A stretch of 51,245 bases of DNA from Desulfovibrionaceae bacterium (GTDB taxonomy: Bacteria; Desulfobacterota; Desulfovibrionia; Desulfovibrionales; Desulfovibrionaceae): the NCBI GenBank assembly GCA_031082225.1, contig JAVHLG010000030.1, positions 1 to 51,245 on the forward strand, read 5' to 3'. The notes below the pieces were generated by a model, which made no database searches, had not been told where the DNA came from, and was given only the letters and a program-made list of their open reading frames with translations. Each line of letters begins with the position of its first letter. The stretch's first letter is position 1. This document shows, one piece after another, positions 4,559 through 27,344 of this stretch. The position numbers were made by a program, and so were the translations under genes.

Positions 4559-5007
4559 TTTGCTTCTCCTTCTGGGAGTTGCCGCTTTCTCGGCCTATCT
4601 CGTTTGACGATCCGGTGGTTGCGCCCTACCGGGAATGCCCCGCGCTCTCGCGCCGTAGTTTTTTTGTGCAGCGGGCGGGACCAGTTCCCACAACCGCAGG
4701 CAGACCTTCAAAAGGTTTCAAGCGTCCTAAAAAGTCAGGGAATTTCTGTCAACCCCAAAAAACGAGATAAAAGGCAGGGTTGGCATGCTTGTTACGGAAT
4801 TTCGGTGGGTTGGAGGTTCAATTTTTTTTCTTCGGTTTTGCATTATTTGACAAATTTATTCATAGCAAATAGCCAGGCATTTCGTTTCATTTCCACGGAT
4901 CATATGTGATTTCCTGCATATGGCGGATCAGGGGCGGCTATTGGGCCGCAGCCCCCGGATGCCGGACCGCTTTGCCTCGGGCCGGGAAAACGGTAGGTTC
5001 CCGTTTC
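4559..5007. other. Divergent intergenic region, AT-rich in part
   Basis: This 449-bp gap separates the leftward NlpC/P60 gene from the rightward 2Fe-2S/ASKHA gene. The stretch 4780-4910 is strikingly AT-rich for this genome. It holds a TTGACA at 4847-4852, but no convincing -10 at 16-18 bp. Two CATATG palindromes lie at about 4900-4922. No coding or RNA gene was recognised; it probably carries the promoters for both flanking genes. Confidence 0.5.
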
Positions 5008-6591
5008 ATGGACGGCGATCTCCTCGTTTCCTGCGGCCACACCCGTCGCACCGTATCCCTGCCCCCGGGCGACACCCTGGCCCAGGCCCTGTTTCGCGCC
5101 GGATATTTCGTGGGCCGCCCCCTGTGTTCGGGCATCGGCCGCTGCGGGGCCTGCCGGGTGCGGTTCGTATCCGGCGCACCGGTTCCCGTACCCCAGGACA
5201 GGAGGCGCCTGACGCCCGAAGACTGTGCGGCGGGCTGGCGGCTGGCCTGCGCCCATCCGGCCCAGGCGGCGGCCGGGGGGGAGATCGAGGCCCCCTCGGA
5301 CGTCGGGCCAGGGCCCGCCCTCCATACGGCCCGGGGAGCGGACAGTGGCGTGTCGGCCGGGTATGTCCTGGGCCTCGACCTGGGAACCACGGGCCTGGCC
5401 TGGAGGGCCTTTCCGGCCTCGGGCGCGGGACAGGCCCTGGAAGGGCAGGCGCCCAATCCCCAACTGGGGGCGGGCAGCGAGATCATGTCCCGGCTGGCGT
5501 TTGCGGCCAGGGACGGCGGGGCGGACATCCTGCGGGAACTGATCCTGGACTTTCTGCGCCGGGTGGCGGCCTCGCTCCCCGGTCCCGTGACCCGCCTCGG
5601 CGTGGCCGGAAATCCGGCCATGGTGCATCTGCTTCTGGGCCTGGATTTTTCCGGACTTGCGGCGGCCCCGTATCATCTGCATTTTTTTGGCGGCCATGAA
5701 TCGGCCCTTGCGCCGGACCTGCCCCCGGCATATGTTCCGCCGCTTTTGGGCCCCTTCGTGGGCGCGGACGCCTCGGCCGGGCTCTACGCGGTGTTGCGCG
5801 GCGGGGCCGAGCCGCCCTTTATCCTGGCGGATTTCGGCACCAATGGGGAATTCGTGCTGGCCCTGCCGCAGGGGCGTTTTCTGGCCGCCAGCGTGCCCAT
5901 GGGACCGGCCCTGGAGGGCGTGGGGCCGCGTCTGGGCCGGGTGGCCGGACCGGGCGTGGCCGTGGGCTTCGAACTCACCCCGGCGGGACTGGCCCCGGTG
6001 GCCTACCGGGACGGACCTGCCCCGGCGGAGGCCACGGCCATCGGCGGCACGGGCTACCTGTCGCTTCTGGCCAGGCTTGTGTCCGTGGGCGTGTTGCGGC
6101 CTGACGGCCGCTTTGCCGAGGCCGGATCGTCCCTGCCGCCGCTTGGGCGCAGGATTCTGGCCGGGCTGGCCTTGGATGGCGGCGAACCCCGGCTGGATGT
6201 GGGGAGGCTGTCCCTGTGGGCCGCAGACGTGGAAGAGGTCCAGAAGGTCAAGGCCGCCTGCAACCTGGCCTTTTCCGGACTTTTTCAGGCGGCCGGGCTT
6301 GGCGTGGGGGCGCTTTCGGCCATCCACCTGGCCGGGGCCTTCGGCAGCCATGTCTCGCCGGACGACCTGGAGGCCCTGGGATTTCTGCCCTCGGGCGGGG
6401 CGGCCCGGTGCCGGGTGGTGGGCAACGCCTCCCTGGACGGGGTGTGTCTTTTGACGGCCGACGCGGCGGCGCGTCGGGACATGGTGGAAACGGCCTCCCG
6501 GGTGGAGGTGGTGGATCTGGCGTCGGCCATCGGGTCGGACGATTTCGGACAGGCTTTTGTGAAAAGGATGGTGTTTCGTTATGTCGCCTAG
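5008..6591 (+). CDS. 2Fe-2S ferredoxin / ASKHA-domain protein (RACo/RamA-like, DUF4445 type)
   Basis: Two-part protein. Residues 1-90 are a plant-type [2Fe-2S] domain with ligands Cys40, Cys46, Cys49 and Cys81. The rest is an actin-like ASKHA ATPase, beginning near residue 121 with GLDLGTTG and containing FGTNGEF and later glycine-rich phosphate-loop motifs. Related proteins reductively activate corrinoid methyltransferases using ATP; whether this one serves a corrinoid protein cannot be told, since no methyltransferase of that kind is nearby. The ATG at 5008 is used because the ferredoxin fold starts there. An in-frame ATG at 4906 would add 34 atypical residues. The gene overlaps the next by 11 bp, implying coupled translation. 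Length 527 aa. Confidence 0.85.
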   Translation: MDGDLLVSCGHTRRTVSLPPGDTLAQALFRAGYFVGRPLCSGIGRCGACRVRFVSGAPVPVPQDRRRLTPEDCAAGWRLACAHPAQAAAGGEIEAPSDVGPGPALHTARGADSGVSAGYVLGLDLGTTGLAWRAFPASGAGQALEGQAPNPQLGAGSEIMSRLAFAARDGGADILRELILDFLRRVAASLPGPVTRLGVAGNPAMVHLLLGLDFSGLAAAPYHLHFFGGHESALAPDLPPAYVPPLLGPFVGADASAGLYAVLRGGAEPPFILADFGTNGEFVLALPQGRFLAASVPMGPALEGVGPRLGRVAGPGVAVGFELTPAGLAPVAYRDGPAPAEATAIGGTGYLSLLARLVSVGVLRPDGRFAEAGSSLPPLGRRILAGLALDGGEPRLDVGRLSLWAADVEEVQKVKAACNLAFSGLFQAAGLGVGALSAIHLAGAFGSHVSPDDLEALGFLPSGGAARCRVVGNASLDGVCLLTADAAARRDMVETASRVEVVDLASAIGSDDFGQAFVKRMVFRYVA

Positions 6592-8614
6592 ACAGACCGG
6601 GAAGAAAGGGCCGGACGGCCCTGCCGCCACGGCCCGGCCGCGCGGCGACGGCCGGGGAGGGCCGCAGGGGCGGGAAGGCCGCAGTGAGAAAACAACTCGC
6701 GAGGGCCGCAGTGAGAAGACTGCTCGCGAGGGCCGCAGTGAGAAGACTGCTCGCGAGGGCCGCAGCGAGAAGACCGCTCGAGAGGGCCGCAGTGAAAAAA
6801 CAGGCCGCAGCGGACGCACCGAAAGCCGGGCGCGCCCGCCGGAGGGGGGCCGTGGCGGCAAACCAGGGAGAAATGCGGCCGCAGGCGCCCCGGGCGACAG
6901 AAAAAAGCCGGACAGGGCGCAGGGGGCAAAGGCCCCCCAGGTCGTCTCACAGGCCGGGACGATCCTGCCCTGGACCCGGGAGGGCCGACTCTTTCCCGCC
7001 CCCGGACCCGATGCCGCCGCCGCCCTGGTGGCGTACGAGGCCCTGCTCAAGACGGTCATGCCGCTGCGCATCTCCCACGCCCGGGAGCTGCCCTCGGCCA
7101 TCCAGAGCCTGTCCGCCTCCCTGACCTGCGAACGGGCCGCCGGTCCCAAGCCGGGCTATCTTTCCGATCCCCGGATGCTGGCGGCCTATGCCTGGTATTT
7201 CCTGCCCTGGAACCTGTACCGCTTGACGCGCCTGTTGCGCGGCCTGGAACTGGATCTGCCCGACGGGGCCACGGTGGTGGACGCCGGATCGGGGCCGTTG
7301 ACCATGGTCCAGGCCCTGTGGATCGCCGCGCCGCGCCTGCGCACGCGGCGGATCAACTTCGTGTGCCTGGACCGCTCCCGGGCCGCCCTGGCCCTTGGTC
7401 GGGAGATGTTTCTGGGGCTGGCCGGGGAGGAGACGCCCTGGCGGGTGGAGACGGTGCGCGAGGAACTGCCCAGGCTCCCCCGGGGCGTGGCGGATCTGGT
7501 CACGGCGGCCAACGTGCTCAATGAGCTGGCCTCCAGGCGTTCCCAGTCCCTTTCCGAAAAGACCGGGCTTCTGGCCGCGACCCTGTGTGGGGCGCTTCGT
7601 CCCGGCGGACGGCTGCTTCTGGTCGAGCCCGGGGTGCGGGCCTCGGGCAAGCTGCTTTCCAGGTTGCGGGAAAATCTTATCGATGACCAGGAGATGTCCC
7701 TTCTGGCCCCCTGCACCCATGCCGGGGCCTGTCCCCTGGCGGCCCGGGGAACCGGGACATGGTGCCACTTCACCGTGGATACCGTGGGCGTGCCGCCGTG
7801 GCTCGAGGCCTTGTCCAAACGCTCCGGGCTGCCCAAGCGGGACGTGAGCCTGTCGTTTCTTTTCGCCGGGGACCGGGCCGTGAGCGCCGACCCGTCCCTG
7901 GGCCGGGTGGTGTCCAACCCCTTTCCGGCCCCGGGCCGGGAGGGGGAATGGGCCCGGTACGCCTGCGCTTCCGGGGGGCTGCGGCTGTATATGACCCCCT
8001 CCCGGGGGGGGCTTGTGCCCGGTGACCTGGCCCGCACGCCCAGGCTGCAATCCCCGGCCCGTGACAAAAAATCCGGGGCGGCCATCTATATCCTGCAGGC
8101 CCCGCAGTGGGAGGCGGGCCGGGGACCGACGGTCAAACCCGCCGCCGAACGCCCGGCCGACAGGGAGGCCCGGCCGGACGGCGAGGCCCGGACTGCGCGC
8201 CGGGAGCATGGGAAACAGTCCGATTCCCGAACCGCAGGGGCTGATCGCGACAGGAAACCCGCCGGATCGGGGCGTGGGGGAAAGGCGTCAGGAAAAAGAG
8301 ACGCTCCGGCCGGGGCGAATCAGGGGCGTGGCCGCCCGCAGGAGCATCCCGAGCGCGAACCCGCGAAAAAATCGCGCCCTGGGCCGACCCGGGACAAGGC
8401 CCCGGCAGGGACGCCCGAGGGGAAAAGGTCGCCCCGTGGCGCATCCGGACCTAAAAAGTCGTCCCGTGGCGCAACAGAACCCCAAAAGCCGCCGCGTGGC
8501 GCATCCGGTCCCAAAAAGCCTGCACCCGGCGGGCCGGGTCGGAAAAAATCCCCCACATCCGCCGGGAGGGCGACCTCCCGCAGCAAGGACGCGAGCCGTG
8601 ACCATGACCGCTGA
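6581..8614 (+). CDS. Rsm22-like SAM-dependent methyltransferase with repetitive N- and C-terminal extensions
   Basis: The central part resembles the Rsm22 family, methyltransferase-like proteins linked to small-ribosomal-subunit assembly. It has a SAM-binding loop VVDAGSGPLTM near residues 230-240 and the family's LEPG-like segment. A cysteine group at Cys378, Cys384 and Cys395 (CPL and WCHF motifs) with a possible fourth at the upstream LTCERA motif would suit an Fe-S cluster. Residues 31-75 are five 9-residue repeats of REGRSEKTA type. The last ~150 residues are Lys/Arg/Pro/Gly-rich and disordered, which may aid RNA binding. The 677-aa length is well above a bare Rsm22 core because of these tails. 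The start overlaps the upstream stop by 11 bp. Confidence 0.8.
   Translation: MSPRQTGKKGPDGPAATARPRGDGRGGPQGREGRSEKTTREGRSEKTAREGRSEKTAREGRSEKTAREGRSEKTGRSGRTESRARPPEGGRGGKPGRNAAAGAPGDRKKPDRAQGAKAPQVVSQAGTILPWTREGRLFPAPGPDAAAALVAYEALLKTVMPLRISHARELPSAIQSLSASLTCERAAGPKPGYLSDPRMLAAYAWYFLPWNLYRLTRLLRGLELDLPDGATVVDAGSGPLTMVQALWIAAPRLRTRRINFVCLDRSRAALALGREMFLGLAGEETPWRVETVREELPRLPRGVADLVTAANVLNELASRRSQSLSEKTGLLAATLCGALRPGGRLLLVEPGVRASGKLLSRLRENLIDDQEMSLLAPCTHAGACPLAARGTGTWCHFTVDTVGVPPWLEALSKRSGLPKRDVSLSFLFAGDRAVSADPSLGRVVSNPFPAPGREGEWARYACASGGLRLYMTPSRGGLVPGDLARTPRLQSPARDKKSGAAIYILQAPQWEAGRGPTVKPAAERPADREARPDGEARTARREHGKQSDSRTAGADRDRKPAGSGRGGKASGKRDAPAGANQGRGRPQEHPEREPAKKSRPGPTRDKAPAGTPEGKRSPRGASGPKKSSRGATEPQKPPRGASGPKKPAPGGPGRKKSPTSAGRATSRSKDASRDHDR
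6671..6805 (+). repeat. Five tandem 27-bp repeats inside the Rsm22-like gene
   Basis: Units begin at 6671, 6698, 6725, 6752 and 6779. The second and third are identical over 27 bp; the others differ at a few bases. Each unit encodes nine residues of REGRSEKTA type in frame, so copy-number change would not shift the reading frame. The units abut with no spacers. Confidence 0.95.
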
Positions 8615-9524
8615 CACGCCGCCCTTGCCGGTTCCCCGGGGCAGGCGTCTGCCGCCCTGGCTGAAGGTGGGACTGCCGCGCAGCGCGGATTTCTCCCGCA
8701 CGGCCTCCCTGGTGGCCGCCCACGGGCTGTGCACCGTGTGTAAAAACGCCCGCTGTCCCAACATCTTCGAATGTTATTCCCGGGGCACGGCCACCTTTCT
8801 GATCCTGGGCGATCGCTGCACCCGGGGCTGCACCTTCTGCAACATCGCCTCGGGCGTCCCGTCCCCCCCGGACCCGGACGAGCCGCAACGGGTGGCCCGG
8901 GCCGCCTTGGAACTCGGGGTCCGGCATGCGGTGGTCACCTCGGTCACCCGCGACGACCTGCCCGATGGCGGGGCCGGACATTTTGCGGCCGTGACCGCGC
9001 GGTTGCGCGAGGCCCTGCCCGGGGCGGGCGTGGAGCTTTTGACCCCGGATTTCGGGGGATGCGCCGCATCCCTGGACGTGGTCCTGGACGCGGCCCCGGA
9101 CATCTTCAACCACAACGTGGAGACCGTGCCGGACCTCTATCCCCGGGTGCGGCCCCAGGCCGACTACGGCAGGAGCCTCACGGTGCTGAGTCGGGCCGCG
9201 TCACGGCCGGGCATGCGGGTCAAAAGCGGGTTCATGCTCGGATTCGGGGAGCGTATGGATCAGGCCCGCCGGGTCATCGAGGATCTGGCCCGGGCCGGGT
9301 GCGCCATGATCACCGTGGGCCAATACCTGCGCCCATCCAGGCGGCATCCCGAGCCCGCGCGCTACGTCCATCCCGACGAGTTTGCGGAACTGGCCGCCTT
9401 CGGCCGGGGGATCGGGGTGGCCGGGATGTTTTGCGGCCCCCTGGTGCGTAGTTCCTACCATGCCGACCAGAAGGCGGCGGACGAAGCGGGCCGCGAGGCG
9501 GCGGGCGGTTGTGAGGGGGCGTGA
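8598..9524 (+). CDS. lipA: Lipoyl synthase
   Basis: Radical-SAM enzyme inserting two sulfurs into protein-bound octanoyl groups to make lipoyl cofactor. Both cluster motifs are intact: the auxiliary cluster C48-x4-C53-x5-C59 and the radical-SAM motif C74-x3-C78-x2-C81 (CTRGCTFC). The HNVET and GLGE-like segments follow (here GFGER). The start is either GTG 8598, spaced 8 nt after AAGGA, or ATG 8604; spacing favours the GTG. The gene begins inside the 3' end of the Rsm22-like gene. The partner lipB lies about 40 kb away in this window, so the two lipoylation genes are not linked. Length is about 308 aa, typical for LipA. Confidence 0.96.
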   Translation: MTMTADTPPLPVPRGRRLPPWLKVGLPRSADFSRTASLVAAHGLCTVCKNARCPNIFECYSRGTATFLILGDRCTRGCTFCNIASGVPSPPDPDEPQRVARAALELGVRHAVVTSVTRDDLPDGGAGHFAAVTARLREALPGAGVELLTPDFGGCAASLDVVLDAAPDIFNHNVETVPDLYPRVRPQADYGRSLTVLSRAASRPGMRVKSGFMLGFGERMDQARRVIEDLARAGCAMITVGQYLRPSRRHPEPARYVHPDEFAELAAFGRGIGVAGMFCGPLVRSSYHADQKAADEAGREAAGGCEGA

Positions 9525-26662: not shown

Positions 26663-26687
26663 AACCATATGGTTTAACCATATGGTT
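26663..26687. promoter_or_regulatory. Two tandem palindromic operators upstream of the TetR gene
   Basis: The perfect 12-bp palindrome AACCATATGGTT occurs twice, at 26663-26674 and 26676-26687, separated by one base. It sits 18 bp before the TetR-family start codon, close to a TTGACT at 26652-26657. A centre-to-centre distance of 13 bp would allow two dimers on nearly the same DNA face to overlap. Autoregulation by the TetR protein is the likely purpose. Confidence 0.8.
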
Positions 26688-26705: not shown

Positions 26706-27344
26706 ATGGACGAAAAGCTGGCCGTCAGGCGTCGCATCCTGGATGCCGCCGCCGAGGCCTTCGCCCGGGAAGGATTCGCCGGGGCCCGGGTGGAGCGCAT
26801 CGCCAGGGCTGCCGGGGTGAACAAGGCCGGGCTGTACTATCATGTGGGCAACAAGGGCCGACTGTTTGAAGAGGTGATGGTGGAGCTTTTTTCCGAGGTG
26901 GCCGACCGGCTGGAGCGGGCCGTGGCCTCCACGGACGATCCGCTTCACCGTCTGGACGCCCTGGTGCATGCCCTGGCCGAGGCCTTCGAGGACGGCCCGG
27001 CCCGGGCCAGGATCATGCTCATCGAGGTGGCCCGGGGCGGGGTGAACGTTTCCGAAAAGGTCATGCATCAGGTGGAGCGGATCTTCCAGTGCACGGCCCA
27101 GGCGGTCCGCTCTGGCGTCGAGGGGGGGAGGCTTCTGCCGGAAAACCCGTTTTTCGTGCATATGTGCATGGTGGGGAGCCTGTCCCTGTTCGTGTTGTCC
27201 GGGCCCATGCGGGCCCGGGTGGCCAGCTTGGGCCTGGGCAGGAAAAACGGCATTGATCCCACCGCCCCCATGGGGGAGATGGCGGATTTTCTGTCCGCGC
27301 TGTTCCGGCGGGGACTGGCTGTCCCCCAGGGCAAGCCTCAATAA
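26706..27344 (+). CDS. TetR/AcrR family transcriptional regulator
   Basis: Ligand-responsive repressor of 212 aa. The N-terminal helix-turn-helix reads RRRILDAAAEAFAREGFAG followed by VERIARAAGVNKAGLYYHVGNKGRLFEEVM, the standard TetR DNA-binding domain. The C-terminal ligand domain has no recognisable signature. ATG 26706 follows GGGAGGG; the frame extends to 26682 but that would run through the operator. It leads a putative operon with an efflux adaptor, an ATPase and a permease, and carries tandem palindromes in its own leader. A role as local repressor of the efflux genes is inferred. Confidence 0.93.
   Translation: MDEKLAVRRRILDAAAEAFAREGFAGARVERIARAAGVNKAGLYYHVGNKGRLFEEVMVELFSEVADRLERAVASTDDPLHRLDALVHALAEAFEDGPARARIMLIEVARGGVNVSEKVMHQVERIFQCTAQAVRSGVEGGRLLPENPFFVHMCMVGSLSLFVLSGPMRARVASLGLGRKNGIDPTAPMGEMADFLSALFRRGLAVPQGKPQ

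Follow-up and report, generated by a model that had tools for sequence, protein, structure and literature searches.

The question raised by this locus is why a minisatellite with a 27-bp period lies in frame within a conserved bacterial gene and whether its copy number matters to the encoded protein. The window analyzed here is the whole 51,245-nt stretch of contig JAVHLG010000030.1 from a member of the Desulfovibrionaceae. A sequence-only reading had described five in-frame units of nine residues, two of them identical at the DNA level, and unit alignment together with Tandem Repeats Finder places the array exactly there, at 6671–6805 on the plus strand. The array is in the frame of the ATG at 6581, its length is exactly five 27-bp units, and each unit encodes REGRSEKT followed by a variable ninth residue (T, A, A, A, and G in units 1–5, respectively). 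Units 2 (6698–6724) and 3 (6725–6751) form the identical pair at 6698–6751; mismatches to this pair among the 27 bases number 2 in unit 4, 5 in unit 1, and 6 in unit 5. A degenerate sixth unit, RSGRTESRA, follows at 6806–6832 and has RTGRSESRG as its counterpart in a sister species (G002). With a score of 191 (period 27, 4.7 copies, 90% matches), the array ranks at the top of the 14 repeat rows that Tandem Repeats Finder reports for the window, and the top score reached in 100 rounds of codon shuffling of the surrounding N-terminal tail was 80. The source assembly consists of 150 contigs and contains the array once; because no second copy was found in this genome, where the next DNA matches cover 23 and 20 bases (E 0.9 and 1.7), a mobile or dispersed repeat was ruled out. 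Other frames across the array (e.g., 6588–6950 on the minus strand and 6216–7124 on the plus strand) were taken as by-products of the repeat.

The host gene (6581–8614, plus strand) encodes a 677 aa protein that we assign to the Rsm22/METTL17 family. Residues 202–447 match the Pfam model Rsm22 (PF09243) with an E value of 8.9e-17 and 61.8 bits against a curated cut-off of 23, and the best relative of solved structure by sequence is human METTL17 (E 5.5e-05). Within the conserved core (6950–8080, plus strand), in an alignment of 80 sequences including that of the window, C378, C384, C395, and C462 as well as H380 are each present in 80/80 sequences, and so is the entire pattern APC-x-H-xxx-C / WC / YxC (P377, C378, H380, C384, W394, C395, Y460, and C462). 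Excerpts of PMC8171064 and PMC11046306 describe this cysteine pattern for Rsm22 and METTL17, and those of PMC11046306 report that four METTL17 cysteines bind a [4Fe-4S] cluster. C378 and C384 align directly to human METTL17, and C395 and C462, assigned by order and pattern, are likely the counterparts of the remaining ligands named in the excerpts of PMC11046306. The glycine motif D234-x-G236-x-G238-P-L (DxGxGPL) retains its first two glycines in 80/80 sequences, the position of the third glycine being occupied by L240 in 79/80, and the match to the Pfam model Methyltransf_12 remains below its cut-off (19.2 vs. 30 bits). A structure model built from an alignment of four sequences only, in which the row of L033 starts one codon ahead of its ATG, has a mean pLDDT of 53; we used it for tail disorder alone and regard its Foldseek matches as a weak hint. 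Among the 50 Foldseek matches listed for this low-confidence query many are SAM-dependent methyltransferases, the best query TM-score being 0.21, and no Rsm22/METTL17 chain is among those 50. The model is too weak to settle the fold. The earlier description of the gene as rRNA-methyltransferase-like is fair for the presumed fold, but PF09243, the METTL17 match, and the DxGxGPL motif make small-subunit assembly factor the better description, and by homology the protein probably is one; whether members of the Rsm22/METTL17 family have a catalytic role is uncertain. The window protein shares with Rsm22 and METTL17 the PF09243 match and the four conserved cysteines, but it differs in carrying long basic repeat-bearing tails at both ends, in a DxGxGPL motif without the third glycine, and in its bacterial setting, the gene being grouped in operon-like fashion with a RACo-like gene and lipA.

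The array forms part of a basic N-terminal tail of 123 aa (6581–6949, plus strand) with a net charge of +17, and a second basic tail (8081–8611, plus strand), 177 aa long as delimited by the end motif and with a net charge of +23, forms the C-terminus. Both are predicted to be disordered from the four-sequence model, in which pLDDT per 10-residue block is 31–42 over residues 1–140, with only two 2-residue bridges there, and 33–45 past residue 520. Four of the 14 repeat rows of the window lie in these two tails: in addition to the 27-bp array and a row at 6615–6641, the C-terminal tail contains a second in-frame array of SPRGASGPKK-like units (8423–8518, plus strand; period 30, 3.2 copies) and a weak array of period 18 (8151–8191, plus strand; 2.3 copies), both identified by Tandem Repeats Finder and built of other units than the N-terminal one. 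Lys/Arg-rich low-complexity regions of prokaryotic RNA-binding proteins treated in excerpts of PMC6821194 are likewise basic, glycine-containing, predicted to be disordered, terminal, and found in translation-linked proteins; compared with what those excerpts describe, a distinctive trait of the window tail is that its build-up from tandem DNA units can be seen directly, with units that vary from one sister species to the other.

Copy number was compared in genomes that represent one per species, so that all differences are at the species level. Among three congeners, the window genome (G000) has five units, G002 has three recognizable units, and G001 has none. G002 is the closest congener, with core DNA 94.7% identical to that of the window genome, and at the matching place it encodes REGRGEKTT, RKGRSEKTT, and REGGSEKTA plus one degenerate unit. 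Its tail is 36 bp shorter overall with the frame intact, a difference that, as we read the alignment, would comprise two units fewer and 18 bp extra just before the units. The expectation that a period divisible by three keeps the frame when copy number changes is thus borne out by the five and three units of the two species. Such a period is not remarkable by itself, however, being shared by 58 of 72 arrays found outside Rsm22 tails in the survey described below. The proposal that the charged repeats tune RNA binding fares less well: each REGRSEKTx unit does add a net charge of +1, but the N-terminal tail as a whole carries +17 in the window genome and +16 in G002, so that tuning by copy number is weakly supported. 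A search with the array DNA against 288 genomes of the family found a match in just 2, the window genome and G002, and a contig search for relatives returned three, at 37–47% identity. In-frame coding minisatellites (variable-number tandem repeats) are known from bacteria, with periods that are multiples of three and copy numbers that differ between relatives. The window array resembles them in being in frame, in its near-identical units, and in its copy-number difference between relatives; it differs in that its variation is seen at the species level and in that its host is not a surface protein.

The age of the array and the constraint on its peptide were assessed from the differences between units. 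All 10 changes that separate units 1, 4, and 5 from unit 2 in codons 1–8 are synonymous, compared with 16 of the 72 single changes that are possible there; by our own arithmetic, the chance that 10 of 10 are synonymous is about 3e-7 if they are independent and 6e-6 if the two changes common to units 1 and 5 are counted once. The peptide therefore looks conserved in the window genome. Measured against unit 2 of the window genome, the three G002 units differ in these codons by 2, 1, and 2 nonsynonymous changes, showing that this constraint is not general, and dN/dS is 0.44 in the N-terminal tail outside the array against 0.09 in the core. Since a 27-bp copy would have stayed identical since the split of the two species with a probability of 0.23 at the core rate and 0.02 at the tail rate, the identity of units 2 and 3 alone dates their duplication poorly. 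Recent slippage, which had been deduced from the identical pair, fits units 2 and 3, but units 1, 4, and 5 with their 10 synonymous differences indicate a greater age for the array overall, which is only partly recent.

To place the array in the context of its family, we analyzed 80 rsm22 regions from 18 genera, the window's own included, picked among the relatives listed; genus g52, with mostly split matches, was left out. Of the 288 family genomes, 260 contain a relative of the core; across the order, the PF09243 model scores over its cut-off in 140 of the 199 genomes sampled, and it does so in 1 of 14 control genomes. The array census covered the 71 of 80 regions with a set start and C-terminal motif, among them L093, whose start is mis-set, and recovered 45 arrays in C-terminal tails (28.6 kb in total), 3 in N-terminal tails (5.4 kb), 2 in the core (77.5 kb), and 70 in flanking DNA (582 kb), corresponding to densities per kb of 1.57 in C-terminal tails, 0.03 in the core, and 0.12 in flanks. 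With L093 excluded, the 56 tails of at least 120 bp contain 47 arrays, whereas their codon-shuffled versions average 2.6 (maximum 8); when the long-tailed genus g48 is also left out, 29 arrays are observed and the shuffled versions average 1.5 (maximum 5). Altogether, 26 of the 56 tails, from 8 of the 18 genera, have an array. The period is a multiple of three in 44 of the 48 tail arrays, and among the best 30 array rows the repeat peptides differ from genus to genus. This enrichment may be generic to proteins with basic tails.

These tails keep a basic, nonhydrophobic composition. A net positive charge is found in all 50 C-terminal tails with a measured length of at least 40 aa. Tail boundaries were placed with a motif that matches prematurely in some rows (L093, L095, L097, and L098), leaving core residues in place, so that the tails of at least L093, L097, and L098 in this count include some core. 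In the composition analysis (69 of 80 regions, 47 C-terminal tails), the K+R fraction is higher in the tail than in the core in 47/47 and that of hydrophobic residues in 0/47, whereas lysine alone (mean 0.100 vs. 0.031) is higher in the tail in only 40/47. The C-terminal tail is 15 aa or less in 25 of 80 rows, 7 of which are unmeasured zeros in which the end motif was not found rather than tail-less proteins (e.g., L079, 797 aa), and the tail is therefore not essential for the Rsm22 family. A long N-terminal tail is rare, one of at least 40 aa being present in 9 of 80 rows, including L093 with its mis-set start. C-terminal tail length rises with GC content (Spearman 0.39), as fits drift in GC-rich genomes, and drift thus has a share in tail growth. 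Long tails occur in genus g48 (L127–L132), with open frames of 983–1191 codons and measured C-terminal tails of 555–604 residues rich in RPDR-type repeats; its member L131 runs to the contig end, and its tail reads unlike those of its congeners. In genus g8, a 48-bp repeat of the C-terminal tail (KSHSPKDTSDSWTSSK) is present in 3.3 copies in L115 and 2.2 copies in L113, two species, and is a second copy-number difference between relatives in rsm22. Among the literature matches listed, the titles and opening lines of abstracts yielded no treatment of a repeat-bearing bacterial Rsm22, which does not imply that none exists.

The gene neighborhood is conserved. Upstream of rsm22 lies a gene for a RACo-like ASKHA/2Fe-2S protein (4906–6591, plus strand; Pfam PF14574, PF17651, and PF00111) that overlaps rsm22 by 11 bp, and downstream lies lipA, encoding lipoyl synthase (8604–9524, plus strand), for which NCBIfam TIGR00510 scores over its cut-off at 8595–9521. 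Read from its ATG at 8604, lipA shares 11 bp with the 3' end of rsm22; a GTG at 8598, in the same frame, is also a possible start. A co-directional RACo-like frame terminates no more than 1.5 kb from where the rsm22 open frame begins in 80/80 regions (L058–L137), with weak matches in L093, L094, and L131 (114–170 bits). The overlap is exactly 11 bp in 58/80, given that the rsm22 start was chosen as the codon nearest to the RACo stop, a choice that favors overlaps. A lipA gene lies downstream on the same strand in 63/80, and 3 of the 17 regions without it have less than 100 bases of downstream sequence. A gene between rsm22 and lipA in L062, the one region checked, encodes a LipB-like protein with a lipoyl ligase/transferase domain (PF21948). 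The RACo–rsm22–lipA arrangement suggests a redox/lipoate/ribosome-assembly operon.

We consider that the array is probably a lineage-specific in-frame tandem expansion within a bacterial Rsm22/METTL17 homolog, in its basic N-terminal tail of predicted disorder, and an evolutionary by-product within what would be a loose RNA tether. Replication slippage or unequal recombination would create in-frame units in a weakly constrained tail, and the units would persist as long as the tail stays basic, flexible, and soluble, with selection acting less on its exact sequence than on how long, flexible, and net positively charged it is. If so, copy number would be a by-product with at most a mild effect and not a fast switch. 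The core, a putative [4Fe-4S] assembly factor, would sit on the assembling small subunit, and the tails could then serve as loose electrostatic tethers to 16S rRNA. Excerpts of PMC11046306 place the C-terminal extension of the yeast homolog in the mRNA channel; by analogy we infer that the bacterial tails behave like it, and the tail probably contacts rRNA loosely. A purely neutral expansion, in which slippage adds and removes units in unconstrained low-complexity coding sequence of a GC-rich genome without an effect on the protein, is a possibility that we take seriously but think rather unlikely. Fast evolution of the tail (dN/dS 0.44), the restriction of the array DNA to 2 of 288 genomes, the correlation of C-terminal tail length with GC content, and an RNA fold no better than that of codon permutations (see below) all speak for it, but it does not readily account for the roughly threefold mean enrichment in C-terminal tails of lysine, whose codons are AT-rich and which exceeds the core level in 40/47, for the positive charge of all 50 C-terminal tails of at least 40 aa, or for the 10 of 10 synonymous differences in codons 1–8 among the units of the window genome when only 16 of 72 possible changes are synonymous.

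A contingency locus, whose copy number would shift rapidly within a population and thereby tune RNA binding by the protein, is suggested by the period, by the two identical units, and by the five and three units in sister species, but it is improbable given only five imperfect units, the synonymous divergence of units 1, 4, and 5, which a fast-turning array would homogenize, and an increment of +1 charge per unit in tails that are nearly equal in charge in the two species (+17 and +16). It is more improbable still that the array DNA or RNA is the functional element, as a structured 5' mRNA or a recombination or regulatory site, with the peptide incidental. The predicted RNA fold of −52.4 kcal/mol is stable relative to dinucleotide shuffles (z −2.33) and GC3 is lower in the array than in the core (0.62 vs. 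0.86), but 435 of 1000 permutations of the same synonymous codons among the same residues and 269 of 1000 draws of codons from the gene fold as stably, and the array DNA folds have z values of −1.4 and −1.1; this synonymous-codon control (435/1000) led us to reject structure as a functional element. Moreover, variation between units is synonymous in codons 1–8, implying that the peptide is what is kept. That the array was collapsed or expanded in assembly and that the true copy number differs, as a genome in 150 contigs might lead one to suspect, is scarcely conceivable, because the 135-bp array is short with mostly distinguishable units and the 2-contig genome of G002 carries it independently.

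The array, a coding minisatellite that keeps the frame of a basic disordered tail, is of an already known kind and represents fairly ordinary tail growth, and the importance of this single 27-bp array alone is small. If in-frame expansion under selection for a basic, flexible tail is the right reading, the family offers a worked case of disordered-tail growth, with arrays in 8 of 18 genera, repeat peptides that differ, and a basic nonhydrophobic composition that is kept, and it lets one ask whether selection sees tail length and charge rather than sequence. A modest further interest comes from the conserved RACo–rsm22–lipA neighborhood and from the growth of Rsm22 tails by repeats in different genera. 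A bolder proposal, which we regard as doubtful, is that Rsm22 tails are a hot spot where RNA-contacting tails are born by tandem duplication on a [4Fe-4S] factor, their length setting the occupancy of the mRNA channel or 16S rRNA and linking Fe-S/redox state to ribosome assembly. On one conserved core, nature would then offer tails graded in length from a few residues to about 600; the factor would be co-transcribed with the gene for a RACo-like redox protein and with lipoate genes, and the system would constitute a bacterial link between Fe-S/redox state and ribosome assembly that parallels METTL17 in mitochondria.

Two further observations concern the gene and its contig. In excerpts of PMC12724379, a Desulfovibrio piger prophage is entered as located in an Rsm22 family gene, which makes the gene a possible insertion site for phages. 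Elsewhere in the window, at 26663–26687, a tandem pair of AACCATATGGTT palindromes lies just upstream of a regulator-like open reading frame that starts at 26682 or 26706, ends at 27344, and presumably encodes a TetR-type repressor; the palindrome pair looks like the operator of this gene.
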